NCBI RefSeq assembly: GCF_000003815.2
Contig: NC_049987.1
Location: 22,121,218-22,185,217, forward strand
Source: Branchiostoma floridae
Lineage: Eukaryota > Chordata > Leptocardii > Amphioxiformes > Branchiostomatidae
DNA: 64,000 nucleotides
Reading direction: 5' to 3'
Shown here: one piece after another, positions 14,228-63,862 of the stretch
How positions within the stretch are numbered: the first letter of the stretch is position 1
How the letters are laid out: each line of letters starts with the position of its first letter
Position numbers and translations under genes: made by a program
Notes under the pieces: model-generated
Database searches by the model: none
Told to the model about the DNA's origin: nothing
The model's input: the letters and a program-made list of their open reading frames with translations, nothing else

Positions 14228-14268
14228 AAAATCCCTAATAGAAAACTTTGCTGCCGCTTCCGACTCAC

Positions 14269-18781: not shown

Positions 18782-18844
18782 TGTAGGGGTCTGTCAGTGT
18801 GTCTTCTGAAGTTGACGCTGTGGAAACGGTACGATTATATGTAG

Positions 18845-39207: not shown

Positions 39208-39354
39208 CTAGTCCTTCAGTTCTTCCCCATGCAGATAGAGGGAGCTGCTGTGCAGGGATGTCTTGACGCGCTTTTCCCGCTGCCGCCGGTTGCAGAACCA
39301 GACCCGGACCACCTCCTTGTCCAGCCGCAGAGACTCCGCCACCCGCACGATGTC
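39208..39354 (-). CDS. POU1F1: POU1F1 exon 5 (end)
   Basis: Acceptor CCCCCGTCCAG. Homeodomain helices 2 and 3 ([32 protein letters not shown]), then a short tail [16 protein letters not shown] and stop. Strongly GC-rich. Confidence 0.93.
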
Positions 39355-42300
39355 CTGGACGGGGGAGGACAAGGAAAATTTCAGATCAATGCTTCAAGAA
39401 GGAAGGAGAAAAAGAAAACTCGACTAGCCCATGTACTAGTCGGTGTAACACCGGGGCTGTAACTGGCCCCTCCGAGGAGGGCGGCGGATGTTGGGCGGGC
39501 TGCTATTAGCGAGATTAAATCAGGCTAGCCCAGGTACCACCCTCCTACTTATGCCAGTTATTGATGGATCTTCATCTCCAAGTAGCCGTGGCAGGCAGTT
39601 AGTCATCATCCGAAACAGTCTCCTGTTTTGGCAAATGCAGGTTGTTACAGCATTTGTCTATCCGCCTACCACAGGTAGATCTTCTAATAGATTAGATATC
39701 TCCTGCTTGATACCATGGACGATGGTGAGCAGGCGAAAAGGAGAACCATCGATAACTTCGAACAACTCAAGACGGGATTGCGCCTAGGCGCAAACACCGG
39801 CCTACACTCTTAGTTAGTACAAGTCTAATATCTGCTCTGTGTGGATTTGTGGTCACTTTGTTTGTTTGTTTGTTTGTTTGTTTAAACCTTTATTTGAAAC
39901 TTTGATTCTAATGCTTAAGGGCTAAAACAGATTATGGGACCGTTGTATTGAACATTGCCATGAACAGTTGAAGACAAAAATCACCTGAAAGGAGGGTTTG
40001 TTCTGCTTAAGGAAGTGTCTCACCTGAGAGGAGGGTTTGTTCTGTTTAAGGAAGTGCCTCACCTGAGAAGACGGTTTGCTCTGCTTGAGGAAGTGTCTCA
40101 CCTGAGAAGAAGAAGTGTCTCACCTGAGAAGACGGTTTGTTCTGTTTAAGGAAGTGTCTCACCTGAGGAGACGGTTTGTTCTGTTTGAGGAAGTGTCTCA
40201 CCTGAGAAGACGGTTTGTTCTGCTTGAGGAAGTGTCTCACCTGGGAAGACGGTTTGTTCTGTTTAAGGAAGTGTCTCACCTGAGAGGACGGTTTGTTCTG
40301 CTTGAGGAAGTGTCTCACCTGAGAAGAAGAAGTGTCTCACCTGAGAAGACGGTTTGTTCTGCTTGAGGAAGTGTCTCATCTGAGAGGAGGGTTTGTTCTG
40401 CTTGAGAAAGTGTCTCACCCGAGAGGAGGGTTTGTTCTGCTTAAGGAAGTGTCTCACCTGAGAAGACGGTTTGTTCTGCTTGAGAAAGTGTCTCACCTGA
40501 GATGAGGAAGTGTCTCACCCAAGAGGAAAAAGTGTCTCATCCGAGAAGACGGTTTGTTCTGTTTAAGGAAGTGTCTCACCTGAGAAGACGGTTTGTTCTG
40601 TTTAAGGAAGTGTCTCACCTGAGAGGAGGGTTTGTTCTGCTTAAGGAAGTGTCTCACCTGAGAAGACGGTTTGTTCTGCTAAGAGGAAAAAGTGTCTCAC
40701 CCGAGAAGACGGTTTGTTATGCTTGAGGAAGTGTCTCACCTGGGAAGACGGTTTGTTCTGTTTAAGGAAGTGTCTCACCTGAGATGAGGAAGTGTCTCAC
40801 CTAAGAGGAAAAAGTGTCTCACCCGAGAAGACGGTTTGTTCTGCTTGAGGAAGTGTCTCACCTGAGAGGAGGGTTTGTTCTGCTTAAGGAAGTGCCGTTC
40901 CAGCGCCTCCTTGGCTGACAGCCCGATCGTCGTTCTGCGCTTGCGCTTTCTCTCGTTCCCAGGGAGCTTGTCGCCGCCCGGCCCGCCGCTGTTCTCCGCC
41001 TCTTCTATCCACTTCTGTAGGATCGGCTTCAACTTACAGGCGTTCTTGTAGCTAGAAATGGAAGAAAGACATTGTGAATCATTGGTTTCTGGTTTCTGCT
41101 TCTTCTATTAGCTTCTATCCACGTCGTTTTTCACTTGCTTTGTTTCCTGATTCTATTACCCACTTTCTCAGGATCAGCTTCAACTTACAGGCGTTTTTAT
41201 AACTGGAAATTGAACAAAATCCGTTTGTTTTCTGCTTTTTCTCTTCATTTCTGTTGGATTGGCTTCAACTTACAGCAATTTTTATGACTGAAAATAGAAA
41301 AAGGCCGATGCAATAATCCATTTGGTGAGTTTAGTGTGCGTTCGCGTGGTATAATAGTAGGGAGTTTAAACCAGACCTTAGAGGTGAAACAAACAAACAG
41401 ACAAACAAACACACACAAACAAACAGTAAATAGGGCTGACCTGAGTTGTAGGTTCTCGAAGCGGCAGATGGTTGTCTGGGAGAAGTCGGTACCGTGCACC
41501 GACGCCAGCGCAGACCCCACGTTCGTCTGCGTGTAACCCAGCTGGGGGTGAGGAAATAAAGTTATCAATTGATTATATCGTTATTCATTATCATATAGGA
41601 ACTTTGAACGGTGGTTAGATCTAGCTGGTCCCGAAAATAAGTCAATAAAAACAGCACGCCAGGGCAAAACCCCCACTTTAGTCTGCATGTGACCCAGCTC
41701 GGGGACGGACACAACGTTAACTTTATACATGTATATATATCGTTAATCGTTGTTAATTATAAGTACAGTAAAGTTATAGGGGTAAGTCTTATTGCATGGA
41801 TTAAGACACTCAACACCATAGCTTGTGACAACAAGAGGCTATTTCAAACATTTCTTTTTGGCTCCGTTCTTTCTTCTGCTTCTTTCTTTTCTCTACTTAA
41901 CACTTGGAAAGCATATATTACACGACATACCTTAATCCTGCGCAGTTTGAAGTCGTTGGCGAACTCCTCCAGCTCGCGGAGCTCCGGGGTGTTAGGCTCG
42001 GCCTGGGCGGCGGGGGGTTTACAGGTCAGGGAGAGGGGGTGTCCCATGGAGAGGGGGTTCCCGTCTCCGTCCGGAGGGGGCTTGTGCACCAGGGAGAGGG
42101 ACAGGGGGGACACGTCCGAGCCGGGGTACAGGTGGGAACCTGAAACATGAAACACGAAGTTAACTCACGAGTTTATAGTTTATACATAACTTAATTGCAC
42201 AACAATTGTACGAGGTACAAAGTATGGCATCTATATAACTACAGTGCTATAACTTAACTTAAGGCCTATCTAACTAATACAGGAGTTGTAGTATGGGATA

Positions 42301-45122: not shown

Positions 45123-45145
45123 GTTTCACTAAGGTCGCGATGGAT

Positions 45146-45162
45146 ACTTTAAATATATACTC
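45146..45162 (-). promoter_or_regulatory. TATA-like box upstream of POU1F1
   Basis: The minus strand reads GAGTATATATTTAAAG about 25-40 bp before the start codon. If it is used, the 5' UTR would be very short, so it may be coincidence or an upstream exon may exist. Confidence 0.3.
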
Positions 45163-47057
45163 GAATCTAGTATCGCACAGTTCGGACCCAGCGTTCTTCT
45201 TCGTTCCACTGCAGAAAAAGATGGTGATTCTCAGTTGTACAATAGCAGAAGTTGTGCAGTGGGGGTTCCTTCTGTGTGGTGGGGACTATATTTCAATCAT
45301 CAGGGGAACGGCCTGGCTATTTGATATTCAATCTGGAGTCTGATTGCCTTTTCGTACAGGGATCGTCCATTCCGTAATCTCTGGAGGGGTGGTCCAAAAC
45401 AAGACTTAATCCCGTCGCCTTTGACGTTTAATTACCGTTCACATGTGTATTAAGCCATTACCTACTCTCAATCTTGATTTTGAAGCGGTTTTCCGATCCG
45501 CACCCCTCGAGGTTTTAGAATGGAACATCCCGAACGAAATTGCAGTTTCGGAAAAAAATGTTTAATTATGTCTGGGATTGCGGTGACGTGCCGGAAAACA
45601 TGGAAGGTAAAAACAATGGTGAAAATCAAGGATTGAAAATGAAATAAAAGTAAGTTGTTCTGGGTTTGGCATCCCCTAGCATGCCACTAATGTTGTGCTC
45701 TTGGGAAAGGCACTTCACACGGCTTTCCTCACTCCACCCAGGTGTAAGAATGGGTACCTGACTTCGGTTGGGGAGTAGAAAAGAGATGAACTCTGCCGTC
45801 CAATACCATGCGTTACACACAGTGGATAACAACTCACTACAACCTCAAAAGGGCTATGAGGCTATATTTACCTGCCTTTACTTTTACCTATGAGGTCGCT
45901 CTGGTAGCCTGCTTAAACTTACTTACTTACTACTTACTTCATTATCTCAATCTTTTACAATTATCATGTATATCAAACACGTGTTTTCCGTATTCACAAT
46001 GATCCTTTTGGCATGAATTTGCAGTAAAATTCCAACAAGGGCCACAGCACAACTTGTTAATGTCAATATAAAAGCAATGAATAACTCATCTCACTAATGT
46101 TATGATTCTTGATTTTTCTGCGTGAATCAATCCAGTATCGCCATCATGTTATATGCTTACATGTTATTTAAAAAAGAAATAAAAATCCAGCATGCAACGT
46201 ACCGAGACCCCAGTTCAAGCCTGGCTAGGGCATCTTGGTTGGGGCTACACCTGTCGCTGTAAATACACCCTACACTTTAAGCTTATGGTGTGATCCTCCC
46301 TAAACATTGATCCACGCTAGTCTCCGTAGAAGCTTAAGCCTCCATGGGGCCTTCATCGGCTCATAATACACTTTTGCTGGCCATTTCTTTTGTACTGGGT
46401 CGCTGATTGCCGACCGTCGCTGATTCATTGGCTCCAGAGCCTGCTACGGAGGCTAGAACCACGCGGACTATATCATTGTAAATGTCAGTTTTACACCAAT
46501 GTTACACATGTATTTGCAATCAGCCCTCGGGCGTACATTAGCAATAAACGTATATTCATTAATCTCCGAGTAAGTGTGATATAGAAGAAAGTCAGTGTTC
46601 GGTAAGTCCTCGACGCAAATACCCTGTACGATTTTCCACCCCTCTATCTGCTTGGAGATTGGTGTATATCGGTGGTTAGACCTCCAATGGGATTGGAACC
46701 CCGGCCTTGTGATACAGGAGCGGGATTGAGGTAATGATTAACTCCGCACTAATCCACTTACATGTACTATATGTGCGATAATGCCGGGCAGGGTGGCGCA
46801 CAGAACACCCAGGGTTTGTGGGCAGTAATCTCCGAGCAGATGTAAGGATCCTGCTCAGTTTCAGTGTTTTTGATGTGGTTTTGTAACGTTTAATACGTCT
46901 TCGCAGTTAGCACAAGTTCTAAACTCTTCACAAGCTGAAAGGAAGTTCGGGTTCACTATTAGAAAGACGCACTCACACAAAGATTGTCCTCCAAATACCC
47001 TCAGACCACACCGGATGCTCATGTGTGATCATCAGCGTGCTTGGAGATCAGTGGTCC
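45163..47057. other. intergenic with SINE and LINE-tail fragments
   Basis: 45690-45780 is a SINE piece (CTTGGGAAAGGCACTTCACA, CACTCCACCCAGGTGTAAGA). 45908-45940 (AAACTTACTTACTTACTACT) looks like a reverse LINE tail. GATTGGAACCCCGG near 46694 is B-box-like. GCTTGGAGATT near 46650 and TAATCTCCGAGCAGAT near 46827 are MITE ends. No gene was seen. Confidence 0.5.
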
Positions 47058-47325
47058 AGCCTAATCTCCGAGTAGATGAGTCGATCGGGATTGTTTTTCG
47101 GGCCTTTTTGTGGCCTTTTATGCGTTTCTCTCTCTTAGTTGCCCATTTTTCTGATCGCCTTGCTGTGTACCTGTCGACAATACAGTGGATTCGCGTAGTA
47201 AGATATTGACGAGGTTTGATGCGAAGTTTGGCTGGCGGACGGAACGAAAAGCCGACAAAATAGTATGCACCACAAAAACGTAAAAAAAAGACATAAAAAG
47301 TCGGAGTCTAACCTCTGCTTAGAGA
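47058..47325. mobile_element. MITE, TAATCTCCGAGTAGA / CTCTGCTTAGAGAG ends
   Basis: Diverged ends of the CTCCAAGCAGA family enclose a 'TTTTTCGGGCCTTTTTGTGG' interior. Weak inverted symmetry. Confidence 0.45.
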
Positions 47326-49629: not shown

Positions 49630-49750
49630 AGACATCCAGGTTACAAGACACACCAAAAAGCAGTTACTCAAGCAACTGGATGTGATGTTGGAAACGGTCA
49701 GACGTTTCAGATCAGACAACCATCCGGTGTCTTTCGTCAGGGACACTGGA
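49630..49750. repeat. dispersed repeat (AGACATCCAGG...CAGTTACTCAAGCAACT)
   Basis: Shares TTAGACATCCAGGT, AAAAAGCAGTTACTCAAGCA and GTCAGACGTTTCAGAT with the copies at 51925-52022 and 63498-63614, which are in the opposite orientation, and with the split copy at 22081-22585. Confidence 0.8.
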
Positions 49751-49956
49751 GAAATCTTGTTGGAGGGAGTTGTTATATCCTACCTGTGAATTGGTATGCA
49801 AGAGAGATCTAGTTGGAGAACAGGTTCATCCTTACTGTGAATTAATGTGCTATGTAGTCGACTAGTCCCAAAGCCTTTGTGAGGCTGTAAGAGTAGTGGT
49901 TTGTTATCCACTGTATCTACTGCGTACTTGTGTATATTGAAAGGCGTAGCCCATCC

Positions 49957-50112
49957 TAATCTCCAAGCAGATCCTAAAATGGCATAAGAGAGTACCAAAC
50001 TGGCCAAGGAGTGTAGTCGGCCAAAAGGTGTCCATTTGCCTAGGCCGGCTTCACTCCTTTGCCAGCTTTTGATACTACCTTATGCTACCGAAGGATCTGC
50101 TTGAAAGATTAG
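49957..50112. mobile_element. MITE, TAATCTCCAAGCAGATCCTA ends
   Basis: The right end is GGATCTGCTTGAAAGATTAG. The interior has GGCCAAGGAGTGTAG and the mirrored CACTCCTTTGCCAGCTTTTG. A partial relative (CAAAGCTGGCCAAGGAGTAT / GCTTTGATACTATCTTATGC) follows at about 50158-50275. Confidence 0.85.
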
Positions 50113-50275
50113 CCCATCCCTCTCCTCCCACCGCCTTTTACCTCCCCTATTAAAGTCGGTACCCAGTGGCATAACATGTATCAAAGCTGGCCAAGGAGTA
50201 TATCCGGCCAAAGGGAGTCAGCCGACCAGCTTTGATACTATCTTATGCCACTGGTAAATCTGCCTGGAGACCCAT

Positions 50276-50984
50276 TTTCCAACCTGGGTGTAGACTATAG
50301 TGAGGAAAATCATGCACAGCGACTTTCCCAAGGTCACAACATTGGTGGCATGTTAGGGGATCCAAACCAAGGACCCTAGGGATCTGGGCCAAACAACCTA
50401 ACTGGAAACAAAGGAAAGGAAAATGAAGAAATTACAAGTAATACCCCTTTCCACCAAGGTGGTGATATTTGAGCATTCAAAACTCCCATGTGTCTTTCAA
50501 AGGAAATTCTTAATTAAATAAAGAAGTGCATTTTATAAGTTTCATTGTCAAATCATACTTTTATATCATAGATCATATCCCAATTATAAAGTCATAAATT
50601 ATACAGTTAATCAGTTTTGATAAAGAGGACATAAAAAAGGACAAAAGGTGACCAGTTTAGGAGTTTTATTCTTATCTTCATTGTTTCTGCATAAAACTAA
50701 CGTTATATCTCTGGTACCCCATAGCAGTTTACTCTATATACATAGGAGCTGCATACAACCAAGGCTATTACCAGCAATTTCTTTTTTATAATATCTTCCT
50801 GTACCAATGTTCAGGCATTATGATTACATGTACCACAATATTTAATGACATCTCTATGCAACATTCTTGAATGTAGTACAGAGTCTACAGAACTGAAGCT
50901 TCCTTTGTCTTAAATTCATGGCAGCCTCCCGATATTGCACCATCTTATTTACATCAGAAAGGAAAAATGAAGAAATAATTTATA
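50276..50984. other. intergenic downstream of TRAPPC10
   Basis: 50310-50395 has a reverse SINE-like piece (CGACTTTCCCAAGG). The rest is AT-rich and may include the TRAPPC10 3' UTR. No clear polyadenylation signal was chosen. Confidence 0.4.
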
Positions 50985-51262
50985 TCAGTAAGTTGATTGG
51001 ACGGTAATGACCAACAGGTTAAAGTTCGGTAATAACCTTTCACTTTAAGTTCATTAGAGGGTAATGACCTGTAGGCTCAAGTTCATTGGAAGGTAATGAC
51101 CTTCAAGTTAAATTTATTGAAAGGTAACTGAACTGACTGAAAGGTAATGACCAAATTATTTGAAAATAATGACCTTTAGGTTAAAGTTCACTAGAGGGTA
51201 ATAAGGTTAAAGTTCACTGAAGGGTCAAATGAGGTCAAAGTTCATTGGAAGGTGATGACCAG
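50985..51262 (-). repeat. short array copying the TRAPPC10 stop-codon region
   Basis: On the minus strand the last codons and stop lie in GGTCATCACCTTCCAATGAA followed by CTTTGACC. The pattern GGTCATTACC...CCAATGAACTT.A recurs about seven or eight times in the 3' UTR with a unit of about 30-35 bp. The copies are diverged. Confidence 0.8.
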
Positions 51263-51600
51263 GTTGCCCCCGTTGTTGGCAGGTAAGACGTGCACCTGCT
51301 GCGCCTGGCTACAGCTGTACACCTGTCCATGTCCGAAGTACACCTGTCCTGGATGACTGTCATCAGGGGACCGTTCAACACTGTCAGGGGAGGGTCTAAC
51401 GGTGCCAGGGGAGAGTTCATTGTTGTCTGGAGAGGGTAGCTCCTGGTACTGGGACAATTGGACGACAGGAACCGGCAGGTATCCACCAATCAGAGGCATG
51501 ACCTCCAGCAGAACCTCCTTGGTTGTCATGGTAGCGGTCGGCATGGAGACGACCCCTGAACTCTTGCCGCACACAGCCCACATGGTGTTGTCTGCCAGCA
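51242..51600 (-). CDS. TRAPPC10: TRAPPC10 last exon
   Basis: Acceptor CCTTTTCCAG, phase 1. LADNTMWAVCGKSSGVVSMP, EVMPLIGGYLPVPVVQLSQY, a Ser/Pro-rich loop, then QVYSCSQAQQVHVLPANN and stop. It is the most diagnostic exon for TRAPPC10. Confidence 0.9.
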
Positions 51601-54600
51601 CTGGAAAAGGTTTGACATAACCCTGGTTACTTTAGATTATATAAGGGAGAAACTAAATACATGTCAATGTTTGACACATCTTTGAAGTCTAATAATAGTG
51701 TCTTTCTGTTTATGACTCTCTTTCTTCTCCATCCCCATTTTCAAAGAGTTAAGAGATGCTACATATGGTATATTATGCCAGGTGATTATACCAGATATAT
51801 TGATACAGATACATGTAATGGATATGGCTAACAGGCTTAGTAACAGCAGCTTTTTCATCAGCAACAATTTTTTGGGGGGGCAGATATGATTGTTATGAAA
51901 TGCGTGAATCACTTTAACCTCTACTAAAGGATAGTGGATAATATCTGAAACGTCTGACCGTATCCAAAGTTGCTTGAGTAACTGTTTTTTGGTTTATCTT
52001 ATTACCTGGATGTCTAACCTTCAAAGAAGTACTCACCCTCGTACATGAGCGGTACCGAATCTGTGTCCTGTCTGTCCACAGGTTGGGATGTGGAGGTGAT
52101 GAGCAGTCTCAGGGGACATAAAACTCCTGCCTGGCACTTCTCACTACCTGTGGGGGTCTCTACTGTCGTCTCTACCTGGTACAGGGTCTGGAATCAACAA
52201 ACAAATAAATAGATAAACAAATAAATACAAACAACATAATGATGACACAAAACTGTAGCCAGGCACTTCTCACTGCCTTTTGGTGTCTCCACTGTCGTCT
52301 CTACTTGGTACAGGGTCTGGAGTTAACAACAAAAAAACAAACAAACAAGTGAATAAACAACATAGATGACACAGGACTCCAGCCTGGCACTTCTCACTAC
52401 CTGTTGGGGTCTCCACTGTCGTCTCTACCTGGTACAGGGTCTGGAGTCAACAAACAAACAAATAAACAAACAAGTAAATATAAGCAACACCGATGACACA
52501 GAACTCCAGCCTGGCACTTCTCACTGCCTGTGGGGGTCTCAACTGTCGTCTCTACTTGGTACAGGGTCTGGAGTCAACAAACAAACAAACAAACAAGTAA
52601 ATATAAGCAACACCGATGACATAGGACTCCCGCCTGGCACTTCTCACTACCTGTGGGGGTCTCCACTGTTGTCTCTACCTGGTACAGGGTCTGGAGTCAA
52701 CAAACAAACAAACAAATAAACAAACAAGTAAATATAAGCAACACCGATGACACAGAACTCCAGCCTGGCACTTCTCACTGCCTGTGGGGGTCTCAACTGT
52801 CGTCTCTACTTGGTACAGGGTCTGGAGTCAACAAACAAACAAACAAACAAGTAAATATAAGCAACACCGATGACATAGGACTCCCGCCTGGCACTTCTCA
52901 CTACCTGTGGGGGTCTCCACTGTTGTCTCTACCTGGTACAGGGTCTGGAGTCAACAAACAAACAAACAAAGAAGTAAATATAAGCAACACCGATGACACA
53001 GGACTCCCGCCTGGCACTTCTCACTGCCTGTGGGGGTCTCCACTGTCGTCTCTACCTGGTACAGGGTCTGGAGTCAGCAAACAAACAAATAAACAAACAA
53101 ATAAGTAAATAGACAAACACATAGAAACAATGTAACGGACACAGAACTCCAGCCTGGCACTTCTCACTACCTGTGGGGGTCTCCACTGTTGTCTCCACCT
53201 GGTACAGGGTCTGGAGTCAACAAACAAACAAATAAACAAACAAATAAGTAAATAGACAAACACATAGAAACAATGTAACGGACACAGAACTCCAGCCTGG
53301 CACTTCTCACTACCTGTGGGGGTCTCCACTGTTGTCTCCACCTGGTACAGGGTCTGGAGTCAACAAACAAACAAACAAGTAAATATAAGCAACACCGATG
53401 ACACAGGACTCCCGCCTGGCACTTTTCACTACCTGTTGGGGTCTCCACTGATGTCTCGACCTGGTACAGGGTCTGGAGTCAACAAACAAACAAACAAACA
53501 AGTAAATATAAGAAACACCGATGACACAGGACTCCCGCCTGGCACTTCTTACTGCCTGTTGGGGTCTCAACTGTCGTCTCTACCTGGTACAGGGTCTGGA
53601 GTCAACAAACAAACAAACAAGTAAATATAAGCAACACCGATGACACAGGACTCCCGCCTGGCACTTCTCACTACCTGTGGGGGTCTCCATTGTCGTCTCT
53701 ACCTGGTACAGGGTCTGGAGTCAACAAACAAACAAACAAACAAGTAAATATAAGCAACACCGATGACATAGGACTCCCGCCTGGCACTTCTCACTACCTG
53801 TGGGGGTCTCCACTGTTGTCTCTACCTGGTACAGGGTCTGGAGTCAACAAACAAACAAACAAAGAAGTAAATATAAGCAACACCGATGACACAGGACTCC
53901 CGCCTGGCACTTCTCACTGCCTGTGGGGGTCTCCACTGTCGTCTCTACCTGGTACAGGGTCTGGAGTCAGCAAACAAACAAATAAACAAACAAATAAGTA
54001 AATAGACAAACACATAGAAACAATGTAACGGACACAGAACTCCAGCCTGGCACTTCTCACTACCTGTGGGGGTCTCCACTGTTGTCTCCACCTGGTACAG
54101 GGTCTGGAGTCAACAAACAAACAAATAAACAAACAAATAAGTAAATAGACAAACACATAGAAACAATGTAACGGACACAGAACTCCAGCCTGGCACTTCT
54201 CACTACCTGTGGGGGTCTCCACTGTTGTCTCCACCTGGTACAGGGTCTGGAGTCAACAAACAAACAAACAAGTAAATATAAGCAACACCGATGACATAAA
54301 ACTCCAGCCTGGCACTTCTCACTACCTGTTGGGGTCTCCACTGATGTCTCTACTTGGTACAGGGTCTGGAGTCAACAAACAAACAAACAAGTAAATATAA
54401 GCAACACCGATGACATAAAACTCCAGCCTGGCACTTCTCACTACCTGTTGGGGTCTCCACTGATGTCTCGACCTGGTACAGGGTCTGGAGTCAACAAACA
54501 AACAAACAAACAAGTAAATATAAGAAACACCGATGACACAGGACTCCCGCCTGGCACTTCTTACTGCCTGTTGGGGTCTCAACTGTCGTCTCTACCTGGT

Positions 54601-57600
54601 ACAGGGTCTGGAGTCAACAAACAAACAAACAAACAAGTAAATATAAGCAACACCGATGACACAGGACTCCTGCCTGGCACTTCTCACAGCCTGTGGGGGT
54701 CTCCACTGTTGTCTCTACCTGGTACAGGGTCTGGAGTCAACAAACAAACAAACAAAGATAACAAGTGAATAGACAAACAAATAAATAGAAACAATGTAAA
54801 GGACACAGGTCTCCTGCCTGGCACTTCTCACTGCCTGTTGGTGTCTCTACTGAGGTCTCTACCTGGTACAGGGTCTGGAGTCAACAAACAAACAAACAAA
54901 CAAACAAATAAATACAAACAATGCTTGTGGGGGGTCTCCACTGTTGTCTCGACCTGGTACAGGGTCTGGGGTCAACAAACAAACAAACGAACAAGTAAAT
55001 ACAAACAACATTGATGACAGAGAGCTCAAGCTTGGTTCTTCCCACTGATGTCTCTGTGATAAAGAAAATGCACAGTACATATAGCTTTAAACTCTGCAAT
55101 GGTAATGTGTAAGTAAAATTTGGTCTTTTCTATATGCATAAAGTCATCACTACAAATTTCAGTGCTATCAACCAAAAATAAAGGAGACCTTTGCATACAA
55201 CACTGCAAACTTTTGCGGGGTAGGTTGATTGTTGTTGATACTGTTGTTCCATACCTTAAAGCTGTTCATTGTAAAGCTGTAGTTGTAGGGAGTCTGCTGC
55301 TGTGATCCCTGCAGACAGTACTGCAGAGAAAACCTGCAGCTGAGCTGCGGCAGTCCCTGCAGTTCTTCTGGGTGCAGCTGCCACAGGTACGACACGGTCT
55401 GGTCCTTGTATACAATCTAGGTGGGGGGGAGAGGGCCTGTAAGAGTTAACATCTGCCACAGGTACGACGCGGTCTGGTCTCTGTACACAACATGGGGGGA
55501 GGGGGGCACATACGAGTTAAAATCTACCAAAGGTATGACACCATCTGGTCTCTGTACACAACCTGGGAGGGAAAAATGTTACAAAAGACTTCAATTGAAA
55601 GACCTCACACCAGTTTAGCTCACAGAAGAGCTAATCTTCCCTAGGTTGTGACAGAGAAGACCGACGCCACGTACAGTGTTTACAGGTTTATTGTACCAAT
55701 GAATTTCCCCAAGCTCTTTTCGACATGTACCACATCCTCCTGTCCTAAGGACTGCAACCCTTTCCAGTTAAGTGTGCAAGTTTGAGGAGCAACAAAAGCT
55801 GGAATTCAAACTACCAACCTCTTACTGTCACATGTAAATGGTAGAAATGTAGAATATTAGACAATTGAATTTCTGTTCCTACACAAGGTTGATATGGTGT
55901 CCTTGTGGTTGGGGCTGTTTGTTTGTATTGCAAAAGTTTATTTTACAGGAGGGGGTGCTAGTCCTTTCTCCATAGCGCGCTCAAGGCACCTCCTCAAACA
56001 CAGGACCCCAACTTTACATCCCTTCCAAAAGACAGGTGCAGAGATGCCCTGTTCCACAGGGAACTGGGGTCTCCCAGTTACCAACGAAATCAGAACCAGG
56101 AGCTCAACTGTGAGGCCGCAACCAGTTGAGCTACAGGAACATCCTAACAGTTAAGTAAGACATACACCTAAATAAGTAATCTCCAAGCAGATCCTACGGT
56201 AGCATAAGATACTATCAAAAGCTGGCAGAGGAGTGAAGCCATCTTAGGAGAGTGTTTCGCTACAAGGCAAATGGACACCTTTTGGCTGACTACACTCCTT
56301 AGCCAGTTTGGTACTATCTGATGCCATTGTAGGATCTGCTTGGAGATTACTAAATAAGCACAGATAAAACTGACCATGGGGCTGTCTTGATGGAGCGGTG
56401 TCAATCTCACAGCCGTGTCACTGTCCTGCAGGTCACTGATGGAGAGGTCAGGGTTCTGTAGGTCAAACTTGGCACTGCTCAGGCCAACCACCTCCACATG
56501 CACAAACTTACTACAGAGGGAACACATGGGAAGAAGTAAAAGGTTATGATTATTGAAATCATAAATAAGTCAAGTAAGATGTCTTTCTCAACAGGCATAT
56601 CATAAGACAAATAATGAGTAGGTCATGGTGTTGCACAGAAACCTGTTTTACTTAGCTCTAATTCTGCCTTTTTGGGGATCAAATTTGCACTCATGCCTGT
56701 ACTAGTCCATTACACCATATTTTTCATTGACTCTCATTCTTCTGACTGAATTAATTACTTGTCTTATTTCCTCACATCCACCAAGTAGTCATTACAGAGA
56801 GGTTTGACTGTGCTAATCTGTATGTTTAATGTGTAATAACAAAATTTACATGCATCCAGGTGCCATTTATATGTACATGTATGTTGGACATAGCCAAAAT
56901 TCTATGAAACACAAATTCAAACTGGTCATCATAGGCGAAGAGCACACTTGGAGGTTCAAATCAAATATTGTATCATGAACCATGCAAATATTTCTTGGAG
57001 ATTAATGAAATAGATGAAAAAAATCAATATAAAGCTACCTGTCCCCTGCAGTGTGTAGCTGGTTCTTGGCCAGGAATGGATAGTGGAAAATGAAGGTCGT
57101 CTCAGGTTCATCTTTTACTAGTGGACTCTTAAAGGAGACCTGCAGAAACAAACAAAGTAAATCACAAGGAATGGTTGTTATTGGGATAGATAAAATATTT
57201 CTCATATACACTTGTTTTGTTCATTTTCTTAGAATATAAAAAATAACTGCCTGAGTCCCTGACTGAAGCTGTCGACTGTCTCCTGAGACGACAAGAGCCG
57301 AAGAAACAAGTTCCAGCACCGTCACTGCAGTAACTATCACAGATAAAGGAGCAGTGAGTTGTCTAGATTTATCATTGAATGCTTCCTAAAAAGAAGGTAA
57401 GCTAAAACTAGTAAAAGTAATGTGAGAACAATGGACAATCAACAGAAACTGAACTGGATAACCTGGCAGCATGCTTTGTTGTTTACAGAAAGAGTCAATT
57501 ACATAACTGGAAAAAAGATAGACCCTAGCTCATCCAAACATTTTTATCATCATCTTGCCGTGGTCTACAGTCAGTGCTTCATGTACCTTGTTTTCCAAAT

Positions 57601-60600
57601 TGGTCTACCATGATAAAGAGTCCACACGACTGAACAACAAACATTTTCAATTATCCATGGTCTGCAGTCAGTGCTTTGTATAACGTTAGTTCTCCTTTAT
57701 CCGTTGGGTAACCTATTTCCGTTGATTTTAAAACAGGTTATGTACAGATATCAAGTAAACGGAATTTCGTTTAAAACTGCAGTATTTTCAGGATATTGCA
57801 GCTTGAAACCAACACACGTTGACAAAATATCCGTACATACCCTGTTTTAAAAACAATGGATAAAGGTTACCCCACGGATAAAAGTGAACTAGCGTTACCT
57901 TGTGTTCCACATTGGTGGCATCTCCCTCCTGTCCAGCCAACCCCAGGTCAGGGATCTCCGCTGTGGCCCAGACGGTCAGCTGGAGACGATGGTACGCCTC
58001 TACAGTGGGCAGCTTCAGGACCAGGCAGCCTCCATCCTCCTCTGACTGGTACTCTACATCATCTGGGGATTCATCTTCAGCTGTGGAGGAGAAGAAGTTA
58101 ACACTGGTCAGATGTAGCATAAACATTTAGCTGGAGTCAAAGGTACGCCTCCACAGTCGGCAGCTTCAGCACCAGACAGCCTTCCTCCTCCTCTTACTGG
58201 TACTCTACATCATCTGGGGACTCATCTTCAGCTATGGAGAGGAGAAATTAACACTTGTCAACTGTTACAAAAACAGTCAGCTGGAGCTGATGGTTGGCTT
58301 CCACAGTGCTCTTATATTGTATTAGTGTACATATTTCTAATTCTGAATATAAACTTTTAAGTTATTGTGTCTTGTTTGGTTACCTTACAACTCTGGACTC
58401 AAACTTTGTAACCTGTATCCTGTTTAGTGATCTTTGAACTCTGCCCTCACCTGCATCCTGTTTGGTGACCTTCCCATGTCTGTCCTGTGGTGCCTGGAGG
58501 GTGAGTTGGGGGGTTGTGGAGAACCCTATCGTGGTGTCCTGTGGCAAAACGTGGTCACCTGTGCACACGGTCACCTGGATCTGCTGAGGGATTCCAGCCA
58601 GGAGGTCTGCAATGTACAATACAGGTGATCAATTAACAAGCATACTGCTATTAATAGGTGGTTCAACATCTCTTAATTGAACTATAACATGTTGATTCAA
58701 CAGACTGAATGTTAAAAGTTTAAGACACTGGTCACTTAAGAATTGGAAAGTGTCACAGATACATGTACTGTTAAAAGGTAAAGATATTCTAATAGTCACT
58801 TAGTCACTTTTCAAGGCCACAGGGGCAGTGGGCTGTTATCCAATGCATGTGTCTATAGCATGGTATTTGAAATCAGTCAAGTACCCATGTTACATCTGGG
58901 TGGAGTGAGGAAAGTGATGGAAGGTGAAGTGCCTTTCCCAAGTGAACAATGTCTAGTAAGGAATGCCAGGATTTGAACCCATGACCAATTGATCTTGAAA
59001 CTGTCCAATAACCAAGTCACTCAGCCAATTGACACAACAGATAATATCGAGAAAACGTATAAATTATAAAAAAAAAACCAGCACAGTATCTACCCTGTAG
59101 AGGTGTGAGCGTCACCGTCGGGTTCTGACTGGCGACTTCGTACGAGGATGGGGGCCAGATCCGGGAGGAGACAAACTCAGCACTGCTCAGTCTCAGGACT
59201 AGCTGTCGGACTGTGAACAGGCCTCGGCTCTCAACCTGAGGGAAGAGAAAAGTAGCTTAAACACTTTATCCAAAAGGTGTAAGGTACAAAAAAAGGATGG
59301 CAATGGTAAAACATGTCTACTGTAATAATATATAGTGACCACTCAAGGAACTTGAGAAAAATTGTCACAGTAGATGGGTGGTCACTATAGACAGGATTTT
59401 TTATGCTTGTGTCAGTGGTAAAATTTATCTAACCACCAAAAAGTGGCACTTACTAAAAATGCAGAGGTGGTGATAAATACAGACTTGACTGTACAGTATA
59501 AAGATAATGCATACTTCACAACATTCACTAATAATAACAGATTCAATGCAATCTACGCAAACTTTTGGCTAACTTGGCTAAAACAACACTTACAGTGGTG
59601 GAGAAGCAGATTTTATTGTCTCCAGGTTTCAGGGTAATGTTCCCGACCTCCAGGTTCAGGTCGCCCTCCTCCTTCACGACCTCCTGACCTTTGACCAGCG
59701 AGTGGGAGGAGTCCTGTCGCCGTAGAAACTGGCTGGCGCTGGGGCAGTTGATGCCCGACCAGTTCAGACTGCCGTCAGGTTTCACCTGGCACTCCGCCTG
59801 GACGTTCAAGTAGCTGGGGATCTGGGGACAGAGATGGAAAAAGATTCTCACATATGTCGATGAAGGTTTGATATCAAGGTAATAAGATACGTAAAACTCA
59901 AAACTCATATCACCATCTGGTCTTCCTTGTCATTGGATAATTTGCTTGGACTTTCAGGTAGCTGGGGATCTGGGGATAGGGATAGAAAAATTAATGTTCC
60001 TCCCATCATCTAGTCGATGAAGGTTAGACATTCAGGTAGCTGGAGGTCTGGGGAGAGAGATGGAAATGTCCTGTTAGTTTGAATCTAACACAGGATCTGG
60101 GGAGAGAGATGGAAATGTCCTGTTAGTTTGAATCTAACACAGGATCTGGGGAGAGAGATGGAAATGTCCTGTTAGTTTGAATCTAACACAGGATCTGGGG
60201 AGAGAGATGGAAATGTCCTGTTAGTTTGAATCTAACACAGGATCTGGGGAGAGAGATGGAAATGTCCTGTTAGTTTGAATCTAACACAGGATCTGGGGAG
60301 AGAGATGGAAATGTCCTGTTAGTTTGAATCTAACACAGGATCTGGGGAGAGAGATGGAAATGTCCTGTTAGTTTGAATCTAACACAGGATCTGGGGAGAG
60401 AGATGGAAATGTCCTGTTAGTTTGAATCTAACACAGGATCTGGGGAGAGAGATGGAAATGTCCTGTTAGTTTGAGTCTAACCCAGAAACTGGCTGGCGCT
60501 GGGGCAGTTGATGCCGGATACATTTAGGTAGCTGGGGATCTGGGAGTGAGATGAAAATTGCCTTCATATTTCGAAGTAAAACAGAATCACCTAATGTGGT

Positions 60601-63600
60601 GTTATTACAAACTTGATAAAGAAACTTTTTTTAACATCAAGTTTTGACATTCAGATAGCTGGAGATCTGGGGATGAAAATAGAAATGTCCTGTTATTTTG
60701 AATCTAACATAGAATCTTGTGATGTTGTGCCATTGTAAACTTGAACTGGGGCAGTTGATGCCGGACCAGTTCAGACTGCCATCAGGTTTCACCTGACACT
60801 CGGCCTGGACATTCAGGTAGCTGGGGATCTGGGGATGGAAATGTCCTGTTAGTTTAAGTCTAACACAGAATCCCCTTAAGTTATGTAATTGTAAACTTGA
60901 TACACAGAGTCTGACTTTCTTCTAACATCCAGTTTTAATATTCAGGTAGCTGGGGATCTGGGGACAGAGATGGAAAAAGATTCTCACATATGTCGATGAA
61001 GGTTTGATATCAAGGTAATAAGATACGTAAAACTCAATATAGATATCACCATCTGGTCTTCCTTGTCATTGGATAATTTGCTTGGACTTTCGGGTAGCTG
61101 GGGATCTGGGGAGAGAGATAGAAATGTCCTGTTAGTTTGAGTCTAACACAGGATCTGGGGAATGAGAATGGAAATGTCCTGTTAGTTTGAATCTAACACA
61201 GGATCTGGGGAATGAGAATGGAAATGTCCTGTTAGTTTGAATCTAACACAGGATCTGGGGAGAGGGATGGAAATGTCCTGTTAGTTTGAATCTAACACAG
61301 GACCTGGGGATAGGGATGGAAATGTCCTGTTAGTTTGAATCTAACACAGGATCTGGGGATAGGGATGGAAATGTCCTGTTAGTTTGAATCTAACACAGGA
61401 TCTGGGGATAGGGATGGAAATGTCCTGTTAGTTTGAATCTAACACAGGATCTGGGGATAGGGATGGAAATGTCCTGTTAGTTTGAATCTAACACAGGATC
61501 TGGGGATAGGGATGGAAATGTCCTGTTAGTTTGAATCTAACACAGGATCTGGGGAGAGAGATGGAAATGTCCTGTTAGTTTGAATCTAACTCAGGATCTG
61601 GGGAGAGAGATGGAAATGTCCTGTTAGTTTGAGTCTAACACAGGACCTGGGGAGAGGGAAGGAAATGTCCTGTTAGTTTGAGTCTAACACAGGACCTGGG
61701 GAGAGGGAAGGAAATGTCCTGTTAGTTTGAGTCTAACACAGGATCTGGGGAATGAGAATGGAAATGTCCTGTTAGTTTGAATCTAACACAGGATCTGGGG
61801 AATGAGAATGGAAATGTCCTGTTAGTTTGAGTCTAACTCAGGATCTGGGGATAGGGATGGAAATGTCCTGTTAGTTTGAGTCTAACACAGGATCTGGGGA
61901 GAGAGATGGAAATGTCCTGTTAGTTTGAGTCTAACACAGGATCTGGGGATAGGGATGGAAATGTCCTGTTAGTTTGAGTCTAACACAGGATCTGGGGATA
62001 GGGATGGAAATGTCCTGTTAGTTTGAGTCTAACACAGGATCTGGGGATAGAGATGGAAATGTCCTGTTAGTTTGAGTCTAACTCAGGATCTGGGGAGAGA
62101 GATAGAAATGTCCTGTTAGTTTGAATCTAACACAGGATCTGGGGATAGGGATGGAAATGTCCTGTTAGTTTGAATCTAACACAGGATCTGGGGATAGAGA
62201 TGGAAATGTCCTGTTAGTTTGAGTCTAACTCAGGATCTGGGGAGAGAGATAGAAATGTCCTGTTAGTTTGAATCTAACACAGGATCTGGGGATAGGGATG
62301 GAAATGTCCTGTTAGTTTGAGTCTAACACAGGATCTGGGGAGAGAGATGGAAATGTCCTGTTAGTTTGAATCTAACTCAGGATCTGGGGAGAGAGATAGA
62401 AATGTCCTGTTAGTTTGAATCTAACACAGGATCTGGGGATAGGGATGGAAATGTCCTGTTAGTTTGAATCTAACACAGGATCTGGGGATAGGGATGGAAA
62501 TGTCCTGTTAGTTTGAGTCTAACTCAGGATCTGGGGAGAGAGATAGAAATGTCCTGTTAGTTTGAATCTAACACAGGATCTGGGGATAGGGATGGAAATG
62601 TCCTGTTAGTTTGAGTCTAACACAGGATCTGGGGAGAGAGATGGAAATGTCCTGTTAGTTTGAATCTAACACAGGATCTGGGGATAGGGATGGAAATGTC
62701 CTGTTAGTTTGAATCTAACACAGGATCTGGGGAGAGAGATGGAAATGTCCTGTTAGTTTGAATCTAACACAGGATCTGGGGATAGGGATGGAAATGTCCT
62801 GTTAGTTTGAATCTAACACAGGATCTGGGGAGAGAGATGGAAATGTCCTGTTAGNNNNNNNNNNNNNNNNNNNNNNNNNNNNNNNNNNNNNNNNNNNNNN
62901 NNNNNNNNNNNNNNNNNNNNNNNNNNNNNNNNNNNNNNNNNNNNNNNNNNNNNNAGTTTGAGTCTAGAACAGAAACTGGCTGGCGCTGGGGCAGTTGATG
63001 CCTGACAAGTTCAGACTGCCGTCAGGTTTCACCTGGCACTCCGCCTGGACATTCAGGTAGCTGGGGATCTGGGGACAGAGATGGAATTTTAATGATTCTC
63101 ACATTGAAATGTTGGTTGTGTTAGAAACCTTTTCCCCGTTACTGATGAAACTATAAAAAGTTATTTTCATATCTTGTCCTACCATTGTAAAGCTACTGGA
63201 CAGGTACAACACAGATAAAGCATTGTGTCAATATTATTGATTATGTGTTACAGTAGTAAATTCTTGGTACAAAGGGCTACAGAATGATGAAATAAGAGAG
63301 CCTGTACAGAAACCTCTGGCCTGGATTAGTCAAGAAGCTAACTAAAAAGAGAAACCTGCAGCTGCATTAGATATGAGTAAACCTGCATATTAGATGAGTA
63401 AACACCTAGTAAATACAGTTGTACCTTGTTTCAGCTCTTGTCTTCAGCTCTTTTTCAGTCATAGTTAGGTATAAAAATCAGTTTCTTCCAGACCTCCAAG
63501 GTCAATGATGAAAGATAGTGGATGCTATCTAAAACATCTGACTGTTTCCAATATCATATCCAGTTGCTTGAGTAACTGCTTTTTGGCGTACCTTATTACC

Positions 63601-63862
63601 TGGATGTCTAACCTACATCGACATTTACATGACAACTAATTACAGTACCTGGTTAGAAGCCGCCTGCCCGTTCCAGCCCCTGAGACTGGACATACAGCCC
63701 ACGCTCACGCTCCTCTTGTGGAACCGCGGGGGGTCGGAGGTCGGCTTGTCCCCGCCGAGTTCCGCAGGTTTCTCCTCGCTCTGAGACGTGACGGACGGCT
63801 CTCTCAGCTCACGCTGGAGAACCAAGGTCACCTTGTCGAAGGACATGTCTTCTGAGAAGGAG
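51242..63862 (-). CDS. TRAPPC10: TRAPP complex subunit 10, C-terminal half (partial)
   Basis: Ten exons join in one frame for about 610 residues and a stop: 63862-63649, 59821-59594, 59235-59094, 58606-58451, 58080-57899, 57139-57039, 56510-56375, 55416-55255, 52187-52037, 51600-51242. All junctions have GT-AG ends and matching phases. The last exon (NTMWAVCGKSSGVVSMP, EVMPLIGGYLPVPVVQLSQY) matches the conserved TRAPPC10 C-terminus. Upstream, 'ITLKPGDNK', 'GLFTVRQLVLRLSSAEFVSS' and 'PQQIQVTVCTGDHVLPQDTT' fit its beta-rich middle region. TRAPPC10 is a large subunit of TRAPPII, a Rab exchange factor complex at the Golgi. The N-terminal half lies beyond the right edge. Four or five of its exon edges are tandemly copied in neighbouring introns or the 3' UTR. 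Confidence 0.88.
51925..52022. repeat. dispersed repeat next to a TRAPPC10 donor
   Basis: AATATCTGAAACGTCTGACC to TTATTACCTGGATGTCTAAC. It ends 15 bp from the end of the exon at 52037, in the following intron. Related copies are at 49630 and 63498. Confidence 0.8.
52037..52187 (-). CDS. TRAPPC10: TRAPPC10 exon TLYQVETTVETP
   Basis: Acceptor TTGATTCCAG, donor GAGG|GTGAGT. TLYQVETTVETPTGSEKCQA then GVLCPLRLLITSTSQPVD. The first 70 or so bp with the acceptor are repeated about 21 times in the upstream intron. Confidence 0.87.
52191..54985. repeat. tandem array of the start of the TRAPPC10 TLYQ exon with its 3' splice site
   Basis: About 21 full copies and one partial copy, unit about 118-145 bp. 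Each has on the minus strand an (AAAC/GTTT)n run, TTGACTCCAG, then ACCCTGTACCAGGTAGAGAC and the coding start TLYQVETTVETPTGSEKCQA, diverging after about 70 bp. The order within the array is itself duplicated: 53021-53341 and 53914-54234 translate identically, 893 bp apart. The exon at 52187 forms one end of the array. Confidence 0.96.
54986..55254 (-). other. TRAPPC10: TRAPPC10 intron, unique part
   Basis: Unique AT-rich DNA between the array and the exon at 55255. Nothing was recognised. Confidence 0.55.
55255..55416 (-). CDS. TRAPPC10: TRAPPC10 exon IVYKDQTVSYLW
   Basis: Acceptor CCCCCACCTAG, donor AAG|GTATGG, 54 codons, phase 0-0. IVYKDQTVSYLWQLHPEELQ, then CRFSLQYCLQGS. Two copies of its start lie just upstream. 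Confidence 0.87.
55440..55570 (-). repeat. two extra copies of the start of the IVYK exon
   Basis: On the minus strand, 55570-55515 reads CCCTCCCAGGTTGTGTACAG and AGACCAGA (VVYRDQ, with acceptor). 55500-55443 reads TTGTGTACAGAGACCAGACC with the AG lost. Together with the real exon this makes a three-copy array of about 65-70 bp. Confidence 0.88.
55571..56176 (-). other. TRAPPC10: TRAPPC10 intron, nothing certain
   Basis: About 55960-56150 has GCGCTCAAGGCACCTCCTC and later GAGGCCGCAACCAGTTGAGC, possibly a decayed SINE in reverse. No exon. Confidence 0.4.
56177..56349. mobile_element. MITE, TAATCTCCAAGCAGATCCTA ends
   Basis: The right end is TAGGATCTGCTTGGAGATTA, an almost perfect inverse. 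The interior has GGCAGAGGAGTGAAG and ACACTCCTTAGCCAGTTTGG. It lies in a TRAPPC10 intron, 26 bp from the exon at 56375. Confidence 0.9.
56375..56510 (-). CDS. TRAPPC10: TRAPPC10 exon KFVHVEVVGLSS
   Basis: Acceptor CCCTCTGTAG, donor ATG|GTCAGT. KFVHVEVVGLSSAKFDLQNP, then SDLQDSDTAVRLTPLHQDSP. Confidence 0.85.
56511..57038 (-). other. TRAPPC10: TRAPPC10 intron, nothing recognised
   Basis: AT-rich intron without exon or clear repeat. Confidence 0.55.
57039..57139 (-). CDS. TRAPPC10: TRAPPC10 exon VSFKSPLVKDEP
   Basis: Acceptor GTTTCTGCAG, donor ACAG|GTAGCT. VSFKSPLVKDEPETTFIFHY, phase 0 in and 2 out. Confidence 0.85.
57140..57898 (-). other. TRAPPC10: TRAPPC10 intron, nothing recognised
   Basis: The phrases GGTCTACAGTCAGTGCTT and GGTCTGCAGTCAGTGCTT (57562 and 57659) show a small duplication. 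No coding sequence. Confidence 0.5.
57899..58080 (-). CDS. TRAPPC10: TRAPPC10 exon AEDESPDDVEYQ
   Basis: Acceptor TCTCCTCCACAG, donor AAG|GTAACG. It has an acidic start and then LVLKLPTVEAYHRLQLTVWA. A decayed copy lies just upstream at 58231-58141. Confidence 0.87.
58135..58310 (-). repeat. decayed copies of the AEDESPDD exon
   Basis: 58231-58141 on the minus strand begins after CTCTCCATAG with CTGAAGATGAGTCCCCAGAT (AEDESPDDVEYQ) and then has an in-frame TAA. A shorter copy of the middle of the exon follows at about 58310-58275 (CACTGTGGAAGCCAACCATC). Confidence 0.85.
58451..58606 (-). CDS. TRAPPC10: TRAPPC10 exon DLLAGIPQQIQV
   Basis: Acceptor TACATTGCAG, donor GCAG|GTGAGG, phase 1-1. DLLAGIPQQIQVTVCTGDHV begins a predicted beta-sandwich segment. 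Confidence 0.87.
58890..59030 (-). mobile_element. SINE, reverse orientation
   Basis: GTGGAGTGAGGAAAG, GAAGTGCCTTTCCCAAG and AGGATTTGAACCCATGACC are the reverse of the SINE body and B-box. It lies in a TRAPPC10 intron. Confidence 0.65.
59094..59235 (-). CDS. TRAPPC10: TRAPPC10 exon VESRGLFTVRQL
   Basis: Acceptor CTTCCCTCAG, donor G|GTAGAT, phase 0 in and 1 out. VESRGLFTVRQLVLRLSSAE, then FVSSRIWPPSSYEV. Confidence 0.87.
59236..59593 (-). other. TRAPPC10: TRAPPC10 intron, nothing recognised
   Basis: AT-rich, no repeats of note. Confidence 0.55.
59594..59821 (-). CDS. TRAPPC10: TRAPPC10 exon IPSYLNVQAECQ
   Basis: Acceptor CATCTCTGTCCCCAG, donor ACT|GTAAGT, 76 codons, phase 0-0. IPSYLNVQAECQVKPDGSLN leads to EVGNITLKPGDNKICFSTT. 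Its acceptor region and first about 93 bp are the source of the 49-bp array and the exon fragments at 60.4-63.1 kb. Confidence 0.87.
59822..60048 (-). repeat. duplicated intron flank of the IPSY exon
   Basis: 59815-59975 (GATGGAAAAAGATTCTCACA, CCATCTGGTCTTCCTTGTCA, then a second AGCTGGGGATCTGGGGATAG) recurs almost unchanged at about 60946-61105. Small pieces of the exon start (AGCTGGGGATC) are found at 59959 and about 60039. Confidence 0.85.
60049..60485 (-). repeat. 49-bp 3'-splice-site array, first block
   Basis: Nine nearly identical units. On the minus strand each reads CTGTGTTAGATTCAAACTAA, CAGGACATTTCCATCTCTCT, CCCCAGATC. TTTCCATCTCTCTCCCCAGA matches the real acceptor of the IPSY exon, and CTAAC, 26 nt before the AG, is a good branch-point consensus. 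Confidence 0.95.
60486..60538 (-). pseudogene. internally deleted copy of the IPSY exon
   Basis: On the minus strand it reads ATCCCCAGCTACCTAAATGT then GGCATCAACTGCCCCAGCGC, joining the two ends of the 93-bp exon start and skipping the middle. The acceptor CTCACTCCCAG is kept. Confidence 0.85.
60745..60828 (-). pseudogene. truncated copy of the IPSY exon
   Basis: ATCCCCAGCTACCTGAATGT through GGCATCAACTGCCCC, with acceptor TTTCCATCCCCAG. It diverges after about 84 bp. Confidence 0.87.
61083..62854 (-). repeat. 49-bp 3'-splice-site array, main block
   Basis: About 36 units of 49 bp, broken by the N gap at the right end. Variants (GAGAGAGATGG, GATAGGGATGG, AATGAGAATGG, AATC/AGTC, ACAC/ACTC) are mixed in runs, as expected from unequal exchange of blocks. 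All keep CTAAC, the pyrimidine tract and CAG. Confidence 0.97.
62855..62954. other. assembly gap (100 N) inside the 49-bp array
   Basis: Placeholder gap; the array is probably longer than assembled. Confidence 0.99.
62974..63068 (-). pseudogene. truncated copy of the IPSY exon with intact acceptor
   Basis: After CATCTCTGTCCCCAG it reads IPSYLNVQAECQVKPDGSLN then LSGINCPSASQFL and an early TAG. Ninety-odd bases match the real exon at 59821. It is the first such acceptor met by the spliceosome when reading from the upstream exon. Confidence 0.9.
63069..63497 (-). other. TRAPPC10: TRAPPC10 intron, nothing recognised
   Basis: AT-rich with a small direct repeat (ACCTGCA/TATTAGATGAGTAAAC) near 63355-63405. 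Confidence 0.5.
63498..63614. repeat. dispersed repeat next to a TRAPPC10 donor
   Basis: ATGATGAAAGATAGTGGATG, CCAGTTGCTTGAGTAACTGC and TTATTACCTGGATGTCTAAC. It ends 35 bp from the exon at 63649, in the same orientation as the copy beside the exon at 52037. Confidence 0.8.
63649..63862 (-). CDS. TRAPPC10: TRAPPC10 exon (first in window)
   Basis: Acceptor TTTCTTCAG, donor CAG|GTACTG. It codes SFSEDMSFDKVTLVLQREL, a charged Ser-rich segment, and ends GCMSSLRGWNGQAASNQ. Phase 2 in, 0 out. Confidence 0.82.

Follow-up and report, generated by a model that had tools for sequence, protein, structure and literature searches.

Why are the edges of exons found again, in tandem, within the adjacent introns of two neighbouring amphioxus genes? 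The question is raised by a stretch of 64,000 nucleotides of the Branchiostoma floridae genome (contig NC_049987.1, positions 22,121,218 to 22,185,217 of the forward strand), hereafter the window, whose own coordinates are used below. The window contains POU1F1 and the 3' part of TRAPPC10, both on the minus strand, with border-spanning copies at several edges of each. The pattern is real and its class is already known: boundary-spanning minisatellites of amphioxus genes are termed mirages (PMC3087553, PMC3902484), a class named in 2002 in work on Adh, as cited in PMC3087553. A preliminary description of the window correctly pointed to boundary-spanning minisatellites at amphioxus Adh, overestimated the novelty of the pattern, and missed its new property, namely that the intronic copies keep the codon sense of the exon. 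In our preferred reading, to which we give a probability of roughly 0.57, the arrays are amphioxus mirages in which the exon edge exchanges with its array and selection on the exon cleans the copies; the exchange is the part that we infer.

POU1F1 (45122 to 39209) is represented by five placed exons and the 3' part of TRAPPC10 (63862 to 51242) by ten. The 15 exons join without an internal stop, and AG and GT are present at all 27 of their splice edges. The POU1F1 product contains Pou and Homeodomain domains, as found by a domain search, and its closest solved structure is Pit-1 (5wc9, E = 9e-73); the TRAPPC10 product contains PF12584 and Ig_TRAPPC10 domains. The analysis was extended beyond the window into the adjoining 5' half of TRAPPC10, which the preliminary description had not seen and which serves as an out-of-sample set; the ten exons placed there give a joined product that matches TRAPPC10_1st (E = 1e-115). 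All 33 matches of a TRAPPC10 protein search of the genome, best candidates only, fall at this one locus, and a single assembly (a 513-Mb genome with chromosome-scale contigs) is used throughout. An intron of TRAPPC10 in the extension (contig C9, about 22186238-22188394; 65021-67177 in extended coordinates) harbours a 719-codon open frame that looks transposase-like by eye.

Copies were sought by blastn with 150 bp on either side of each edge, at score cut-offs chosen by hand. Edge-spanning copies are present at seven of the 27 splice edges, as well as at the TRAPPC10 stop-codon end, the same eight edges that the preliminary description had named, and no ninth was added; all copies lie on the minus strand. 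In POU1F1, both edges of exon 4 (40862..41051, supported by splice joints, domains, the structure match and blastn) are copied. The donor edge is followed by an array of 39-bp units of 33 exon and 6 intron bases (39981..40855), with 21 intronic copies if truncated ones are counted, whereas the acceptor edge has two decayed copies of 74–76% identity by blastn (41141..41302) and a third scrap of 14 bp. The start of exon 3 has one decayed copy (41656..41766, 70% by blastn). In TRAPPC10, the TLYQ exon (52037..52187, supported by splice joints and domains) is the true terminal unit of an acceptor-edge array of 123/143-bp units with 22 intronic copies (52244..55006). Two decayed copies correspond to the IVYK acceptor edge (55450..55571), and one, 81% identical over 201 bp and with an in-frame stop, to the AEDE acceptor edge (58108..58307). 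The IPSY exon (59594..59821, supported by splice joints) has acceptor copies of several sizes (59944..61107), among them a 49-bp array (60047-60492) and, at 60746-60843, a copy of part of the exon with six codon differences, all synonymous; beyond them lie a second 49-bp array (61102..62854) and a distal partial-exon copy of the acceptor, 93% identical over 134 bp (62971..63104). The 49-bp unit occurs 49 times, in 46 cases with at least 40 columns, but this assembly count may differ from the true copy number, because a gap of 100 N (62855-62954) sits within the array. The stop-codon end, which is not a splice edge, has degenerate copies at 67–68% (50996..51153). Tandem Repeats Finder detects the three large arrays (POU1F1 exon 4 end, TLYQ, and IPSY).

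The preliminary description had reported several edges per gene and all sizes from a first duplication to a long array, and copy numbers do range from 1 to 49. Its statement that the copies keep the splice site holds for the large arrays, where AG is retained in 22 of 22 TLYQ copies and 49 of 49 IPSY units and GT in 19 of the 21 POU1F1 exon 4 donor copies, and fails for one of the two IVYK copies, which lacks AG by eye (the other has an in-frame stop). The growth "only outward" that had been proposed is dropped as a mechanism. Tandem duplication of a border-spanning unit necessarily leaves the copy attached to the exon at the end of the array and all others in the intron, so that the terminal position of the real exon is a consequence of geometry alone.

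Published mirages have units of 10–160 bp, with AG or GT in many, not all, copies (PMC3087553). The carriers Adh3, BflGb6, BflGb9, troponin C and PGBD5, of which the last two were added by PMC3902484, have the same border-spanning repeats as those described here, on either side of the exon and in few to many copies, with splice signals in many copies and concerted evolution within a cluster; somatic instability has been seen at Adh3 (PMC3087553). The POU1F1 and TRAPPC10 arrays likewise span the border, on the acceptor or the donor side, and carry AG or GT in many copies. They are also homogenised, with long exact internal repeats and failures of the four-gamete test in 20 of 36 column pairs, from which it follows that units recombine. 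They differ from the published mirages in the genes concerned, in their density (12 of the 47 splice edges of two neighbours, and up to 49 copies), and in that the codon-sense constraint is measured here; the word "synonymous" is absent from the main text of PMC3087553. We found no prior description of this property: in the openly licensed literature, judged on titles and abstracts, there was no codon analysis of mirages, no genome-wide mirage study, and no report of POU1F1 or TRAPPC10 as mirage carriers, and the literature passages on huntingtin and opsin genes do not mention mirages.

How, then, do the intronic copies vary? The exon part of each copy was read in the frame of its exon, and non-synonymous and synonymous differences per site (pN and pS) were compared pairwise among full-length units. 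The ratio pN/pS is 0.08 among TLYQ copies (21 of 22 units; bootstrap 0.02–0.20; pS 0.27, pN 0.02) and 0.14 among POU1F1 exon 4 donor copies (20 of 21 units; bootstrap 0.06–0.37; pS 0.37, pN 0.05). Collapsing of near-identical units gives 0.10 and 0.18, respectively, and the wrong frames of the two arrays give 1.57 to 4.65. In TLYQ, shared variants occur in 13 exon columns, ten of them third codon positions, the acceptor side of the unit is nearly invariant (one of 22 columns variable), and the intronic tail is variable in 12 of 26 columns, partly through a single block difference. For TLYQ, POU1F1 and IPSY together, shared variants occupy 18 of 49 columns at codon position 3 and six of 102 at positions 1 and 2 (Fisher p = 4e-6).

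The same bias is present in arrays outside the window. The LVIY donor array, in the out-of-sample half of TRAPPC10, has four intronic copies that differ from the exon by 37 synonymous and 3 non-synonymous differences, the latter being one change at the unit border common to three copies, and the copy-to-copy pS is 0.47. Among globin loci, L033 (one copy) has 9 synonymous to 2 non-synonymous differences. L037 has three copies, of which two carry an identical set of differences; its ratio is 13 to 6 in the exon's frame, against 3 to 16 and 2 to 17 in the two wrong frames. As controls, we used seven arrays from random samples, each of 3.8 copies or more and with units no shorter than 30 bp, two of them without an evaluable block; in the other five the lowest pN/pS over all frames and strands is 0.37–0.86. 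The same lowest-frame search yields 0.09 for TLYQ, 0.12 for POU1F1, 0.00 for LVIY and 8.6 for the IPSY 49-bp array; globin L037, with three units, was unscored there.

These figures bear directly on the plainest account, in which the arrays are neutral minisatellites that arose by one boundary-spanning duplication and then expanded within the intron without further contact with the exon. Unequal or intra-strand crossing-over has been suggested for mirages (PMC3087553), and such a history fits the IPSY 49-bp array as well as those low-copy duplicates that carry stops. Random changes, however, would be synonymous in a fraction of 0.19–0.29, or by arithmetic about 0.46 at most when changes on the exon branch are included, and simulated isolated arrays reach 0.23–0.30 (0.25 and 0.30 in a population simulation). 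The variants shared among copies are synonymous in 20 of 26 cases, in a count made by hand with exon-only differences left out (p = 1e-6 against 0.30 and 1e-3 against 0.46), and the LVIY ratio of 37 to 3 likewise speaks against neutrality, which we regard as very unlikely for these arrays.

A second possibility is that the copies are themselves selected, as alternative splice sites or as coding segments in the form of in-frame repeats. The POU1F1 unit of 39 bp (13 codons) and the LVIY unit of 126 bp (42 codons) are indeed divisible by three, and a single open frame of 244 codons, the only long one, runs through the LVIY exon and its array. Yet an in-frame stop lies in front of each of the 22 TLYQ copies, no more than 30 bases upstream of its acceptor, the TLYQ exon's own donor is absent from the copies, the 22-bp units of POU1F1 shift the frame, and the globin 158-bp units are not divisible by three and are biased nonetheless; the bias is thus not simply coding. 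Adh3 data and globin reverse transcription PCR suggest that mirages leave regular splicing undisturbed (PMC3087553). In POU1F1, use of the exon-proximal donor gives an exon 4/5 joint that agrees with Pit-1, as judged from sequence only.

After collapsing of units with at most one difference, and with truncated POU1F1 units kept if they hold at least 30 exon bases, shared variants are 22 synonymous to 6 not and private variants 12 to 15 (p = 0.013); with IPSY left out, the counts are 19 to 4 and 5 to 12 (p = 0.001, counted by hand). Shared variants have been filtered, whereas private, young variants have not, as would be expected if selection had acted on ancestors of the copies in the exon rather than on the copies in place: a unit that had once been in the exon would have had its earlier non-synonymous changes removed. 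We regard direct selection on the copies as distinctly unlikely.

The preferred reading, that the exon edge exchanges with its array, can be laid out as a series of steps. An ordinary tandem duplication across an exon–intron border would be tolerated, as the exon stays intact and the extra copy is intronic. Some duplications decay at one or two copies, and slippage and unequal exchange would turn others into minisatellites, a step of which part is observed. In the expanded arrays the copies, intronic as they are, retain the splice signal and the exon's amino-acid sense, and their synonymous sites vary strongly, as observed for TLYQ, POU1F1 and LVIY and more weakly for the globins. The exon edge would itself be a unit of the array and would exchange continually with the units in the intron, including those on other alleles. 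Any unit that lands in the exon would need to encode the right protein and carry a working splice site, so that selection on the exon would purge non-synonymous changes from the whole array, and synonymous variants would accumulate and recirculate through it. Splicing is assumed to take place at the exon-proximal site, and the copies would need no function of their own.

Must units return to the exon at all? In one-way re-seeding, the array would be copied repeatedly from different exon alleles with no return. Allelic differences are mostly synonymous and amphioxus is highly heterozygous (PMC12862219), and simulated one-way copying gave synonymous shares of 0.51 (n = 45) and 0.67 (n = 9) among shared variants. 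Three further one-way runs, however, kept no shared variant. In addition, a synonymous pi of 0.0397 has been reported for B. floridae (PMC12862219); the pS among TLYQ and POU1F1 copies (0.27–0.37) is about seven to nine times that value, and that of LVIY (0.47) is higher than either, so that copying from present alleles looks insufficient. We consider one-way re-seeding unlikely. With two-way exchange between alleles, in which the exon edge was a frequent partner, population simulations gave a synonymous share of 1.00 in eight runs (4–43 shared variants), the highest of all modes, and exon-edge diversity per site was 0.014–0.044 in the larger two-way runs against 0.000–0.004 without two-way exchange. 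A single-chromosome model of exchange was rejected as too weak, with a share of 0.23–0.41 in every mode. We hold more tentatively, at somewhat less than even odds, that the exon edge and the intronic minisatellite are one evolving unit, in which two-way exchange between alleles purifies dozens of copies by proxy.

Several points weigh against exchange between exon and array as the explanation. The copies within an array are related, and column counts are to that extent non-independent. When shared and private variants are taken together, 34 of 55 are synonymous (p = 1e-6 against 0.30, only 0.013 against 0.46), and several of the private POU1F1 changes stem from one truncated unit. The low-copy duplicates at the POU1F1 exon 3 and exon 4 starts, IVYK and AEDE have stops or many amino-acid changes; in the out-of-sample half, the IPEW copies have 11 synonymous to 5 non-synonymous differences with one stop, and the EELA donor and acceptor copies each have 1 to 1. 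The codon constraint belongs to the larger arrays, not to old single copies, and the IPSY 49-bp unit, with only four exon bases, contains too little of the exon to bear on it. Weak two-way exchange gave shares of only 0.45 and 0.49, so that one-way copying, with its 0.51 and 0.67, is compatible with the simulations, and one two-way run ended without shared variants. The simulations are small (20–100 chromosomes, with 4–77 shared variants per two-way run, runs with none aside) and unfitted, with free parameters and conversion of whole units, and no run reproduced both the diversity and the share of synonymous variants that are observed. Finally, the exchange is deduced from the single haplotype of one assembly.

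Could the copies be an artefact of that assembly, through long repeats or collapsed haplotypes? The 100-N gap lies in the IPSY array, the TLYQ array contains a 593-bp exact repeat at an offset of 893 (52811-53403 and 53704-54296), which is either a very recent block duplication or an assembly effect, and misassembly of a mirage has been reported for BflGb6 (PMC3087553). Against this, the units differ mutually, 16 of 21 TLYQ units survive the collapsing of near-identical ones, globin loci whose anatomy is that of published mirages recur in this assembly, and the PGBD5 sequence was confirmed by re-examined and new reads (PMC3902484). The idea that the copies are assembly errors, which had been offered as a way to refute the pattern, is extremely improbable.

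Are exon edges preferred over other positions? In a census of tandem clusters, the two gene bodies in the window contain seven, all on an edge (six splice edges and the stop end), with the IVYK copies below the census threshold; the other 38.5 kb of the window contain 12, including a GT repeat and elements that by eye resemble miniature inverted-repeat transposable elements (MITEs); one further pair, also MITE-like, lies between the two genes. If the seed units of seven splice edges, that of IVYK among them, are placed at random, each has a chance of 0.05–0.20 of meeting an edge and the product is 3e-7, or 1.6e-5 with doubled detection odds; with arrays collapsed the values are 1.7e-5 and 5e-4, the latter in the least favourable setting. 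The excess of edges over random positions that had been predicted is thus present. As the window was chosen for its pattern, the out-of-sample half of TRAPPC10 carries more weight: there, copies lie at five of 20 splice edges (LVIY donor, EELA acceptor and donor, IPEW donor, and ESIP acceptor). A long merged cluster that covers six edges via one 50-bp T-rich hit was counted for the LVIY donor only, and the ESIP copy, which gave no alignment at the score cut-off in two attempts, was excluded from the synonymous counts. The total for the two adjacent genes includes eight of 24 acceptors and four of 23 donors; an acceptor bias considered for the window (6 of 14 against 1 of 13, p = 0.077) fades with these exons and is not retained.

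Tandem duplications occur off the edges too. Two non-edge clusters lie between the placed exons of the TRAPPC10 5' half and the window (64310-64635 and 69984-70273), three more lie past the outermost placed exon, where exons are not known (76621-76916, 79871-80669 and 82901-83230), and 18 systematic 10-kb samples contain 29 clusters in 180 kb (unannotated, and with a smaller search space than the window census). Edges are enriched here, on the base of a small genome sample. The excess could reflect tolerance, slower decay of half-constrained pairs, repair through the exon, or a bias of duplication itself, and selective removal of duplications inside exons is possible. Nothing in the data favours the RNA–DNA hybrids or splicing-linked breaks that had been suggested as causes.

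Beyond this locus, we looked at three chaperonin genes (15.6 kb, 21 family-matched exons, one gene only partial), picked for compactness and not for repeats, and at nine globin loci selected for their known mirages; neither set is a random sample. The chaperonin genes contain two clusters, one intronic (L043) and one an acceptor array (L044, contig C4, 3000-3418) whose units lie 78–112 bp apart and which by eye holds few exon bases of a TCP-1 family acceptor; among 60 chaperonin matches, no repeated segments were visible by eye at the level of the family search. The globin loci contain five clusters, of which two span an exon edge (L033 and L037), two are unplaced, and one (L036) by eye reaches across a donor edge into about seven exon bases. 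L037, with 158-bp units at an acceptor, and L033, at a donor, match the anatomy of the published BflGb6 and BflGb9 mirages. Edge arrays, found in one of the three chaperonin genes and in globin loci, are thus not confined to two genes, but neither are they everywhere; the preliminary description, which had considered a genome-wide habit, was right that other genes have them.

In the concerted evolution of multigene families, gene conversion lets one constrained member exchange with others. The arrays described here differ in that the non-functional members are fragments of an exon in that exon's own intron. Ordinary minisatellites share with them head-to-tail units, unequal exchange and variable length; however, the present arrays are anchored on an exon edge and have a 3-base periodicity, which the five control arrays do not. 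In amphioxus VCBP3, partial or complete exon copies likewise occur in introns, some with canonical splice sites, given as data not shown in a passage that is silent on tandem arrangement (PMC2632668). A model of intron gain has been proposed in work on mirages, where the Rogers model is also discussed (PMC3087553). In the Rogers model, tandem duplication of AG/GT sites yields duplicated splice sites within a gene, as here, but in POU1F1 and TRAPPC10 existing introns lengthen and no new intron is seen.

Other elements of the window are noted for completeness. An unknown gene on the minus strand has serine-rich exons by eye (14265-14540, 17080-17250, 18160-18280 and 18690-18790); the exon near 14525 has a Kozak-like ATG start, with a 68-bp copy pair immediately 5'. 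This pair, 89 bp apart (14540-14695), is the ninth candidate of the preliminary description, beside exon D of that gene, and is set aside, as it could not be shown to span an edge. A common motif and its reverse complement recur in foldback-type repeats that by eye look like a MITE family (17647-19028, 46630-46850, 49980-50360 and 56170-56350), and the non-edge cluster between POU1F1 and TRAPPC10 (49980-50219) was assigned by eye to such foldback-type, MITE-like elements. The last exon of a profilin-like gene (26950-27096, minus; Pfam Profilin, E = 7e-10) has a 20-bp minisatellite (25921-26334) about 600 bp downstream. A closely similar inverted gene pair with long exons, taken from the list of open reading frames, lies at 2747-4653 (minus) and 5725-7841 (plus) and is presumably carboxylesterase-like.

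If an exon cleans its intronic copies, non-coding repeats can hold coding sense in the long term, gene finders may take such copies for exons, and synonymous diversity at the exons concerned would say little about mutation rate or population size. If, further, exon edge and array are one evolving unit, the array would be a reservoir that returns synonymous variants to the exon, and synonymous diversity is predicted to be raised several-fold at mirage exon edges and to be so only within the repeated block. Such loci would let exchange between a unit under selection and neighbours free of it be studied as a natural experiment, and would bear on the origin of new introns and of alternative splice sites.

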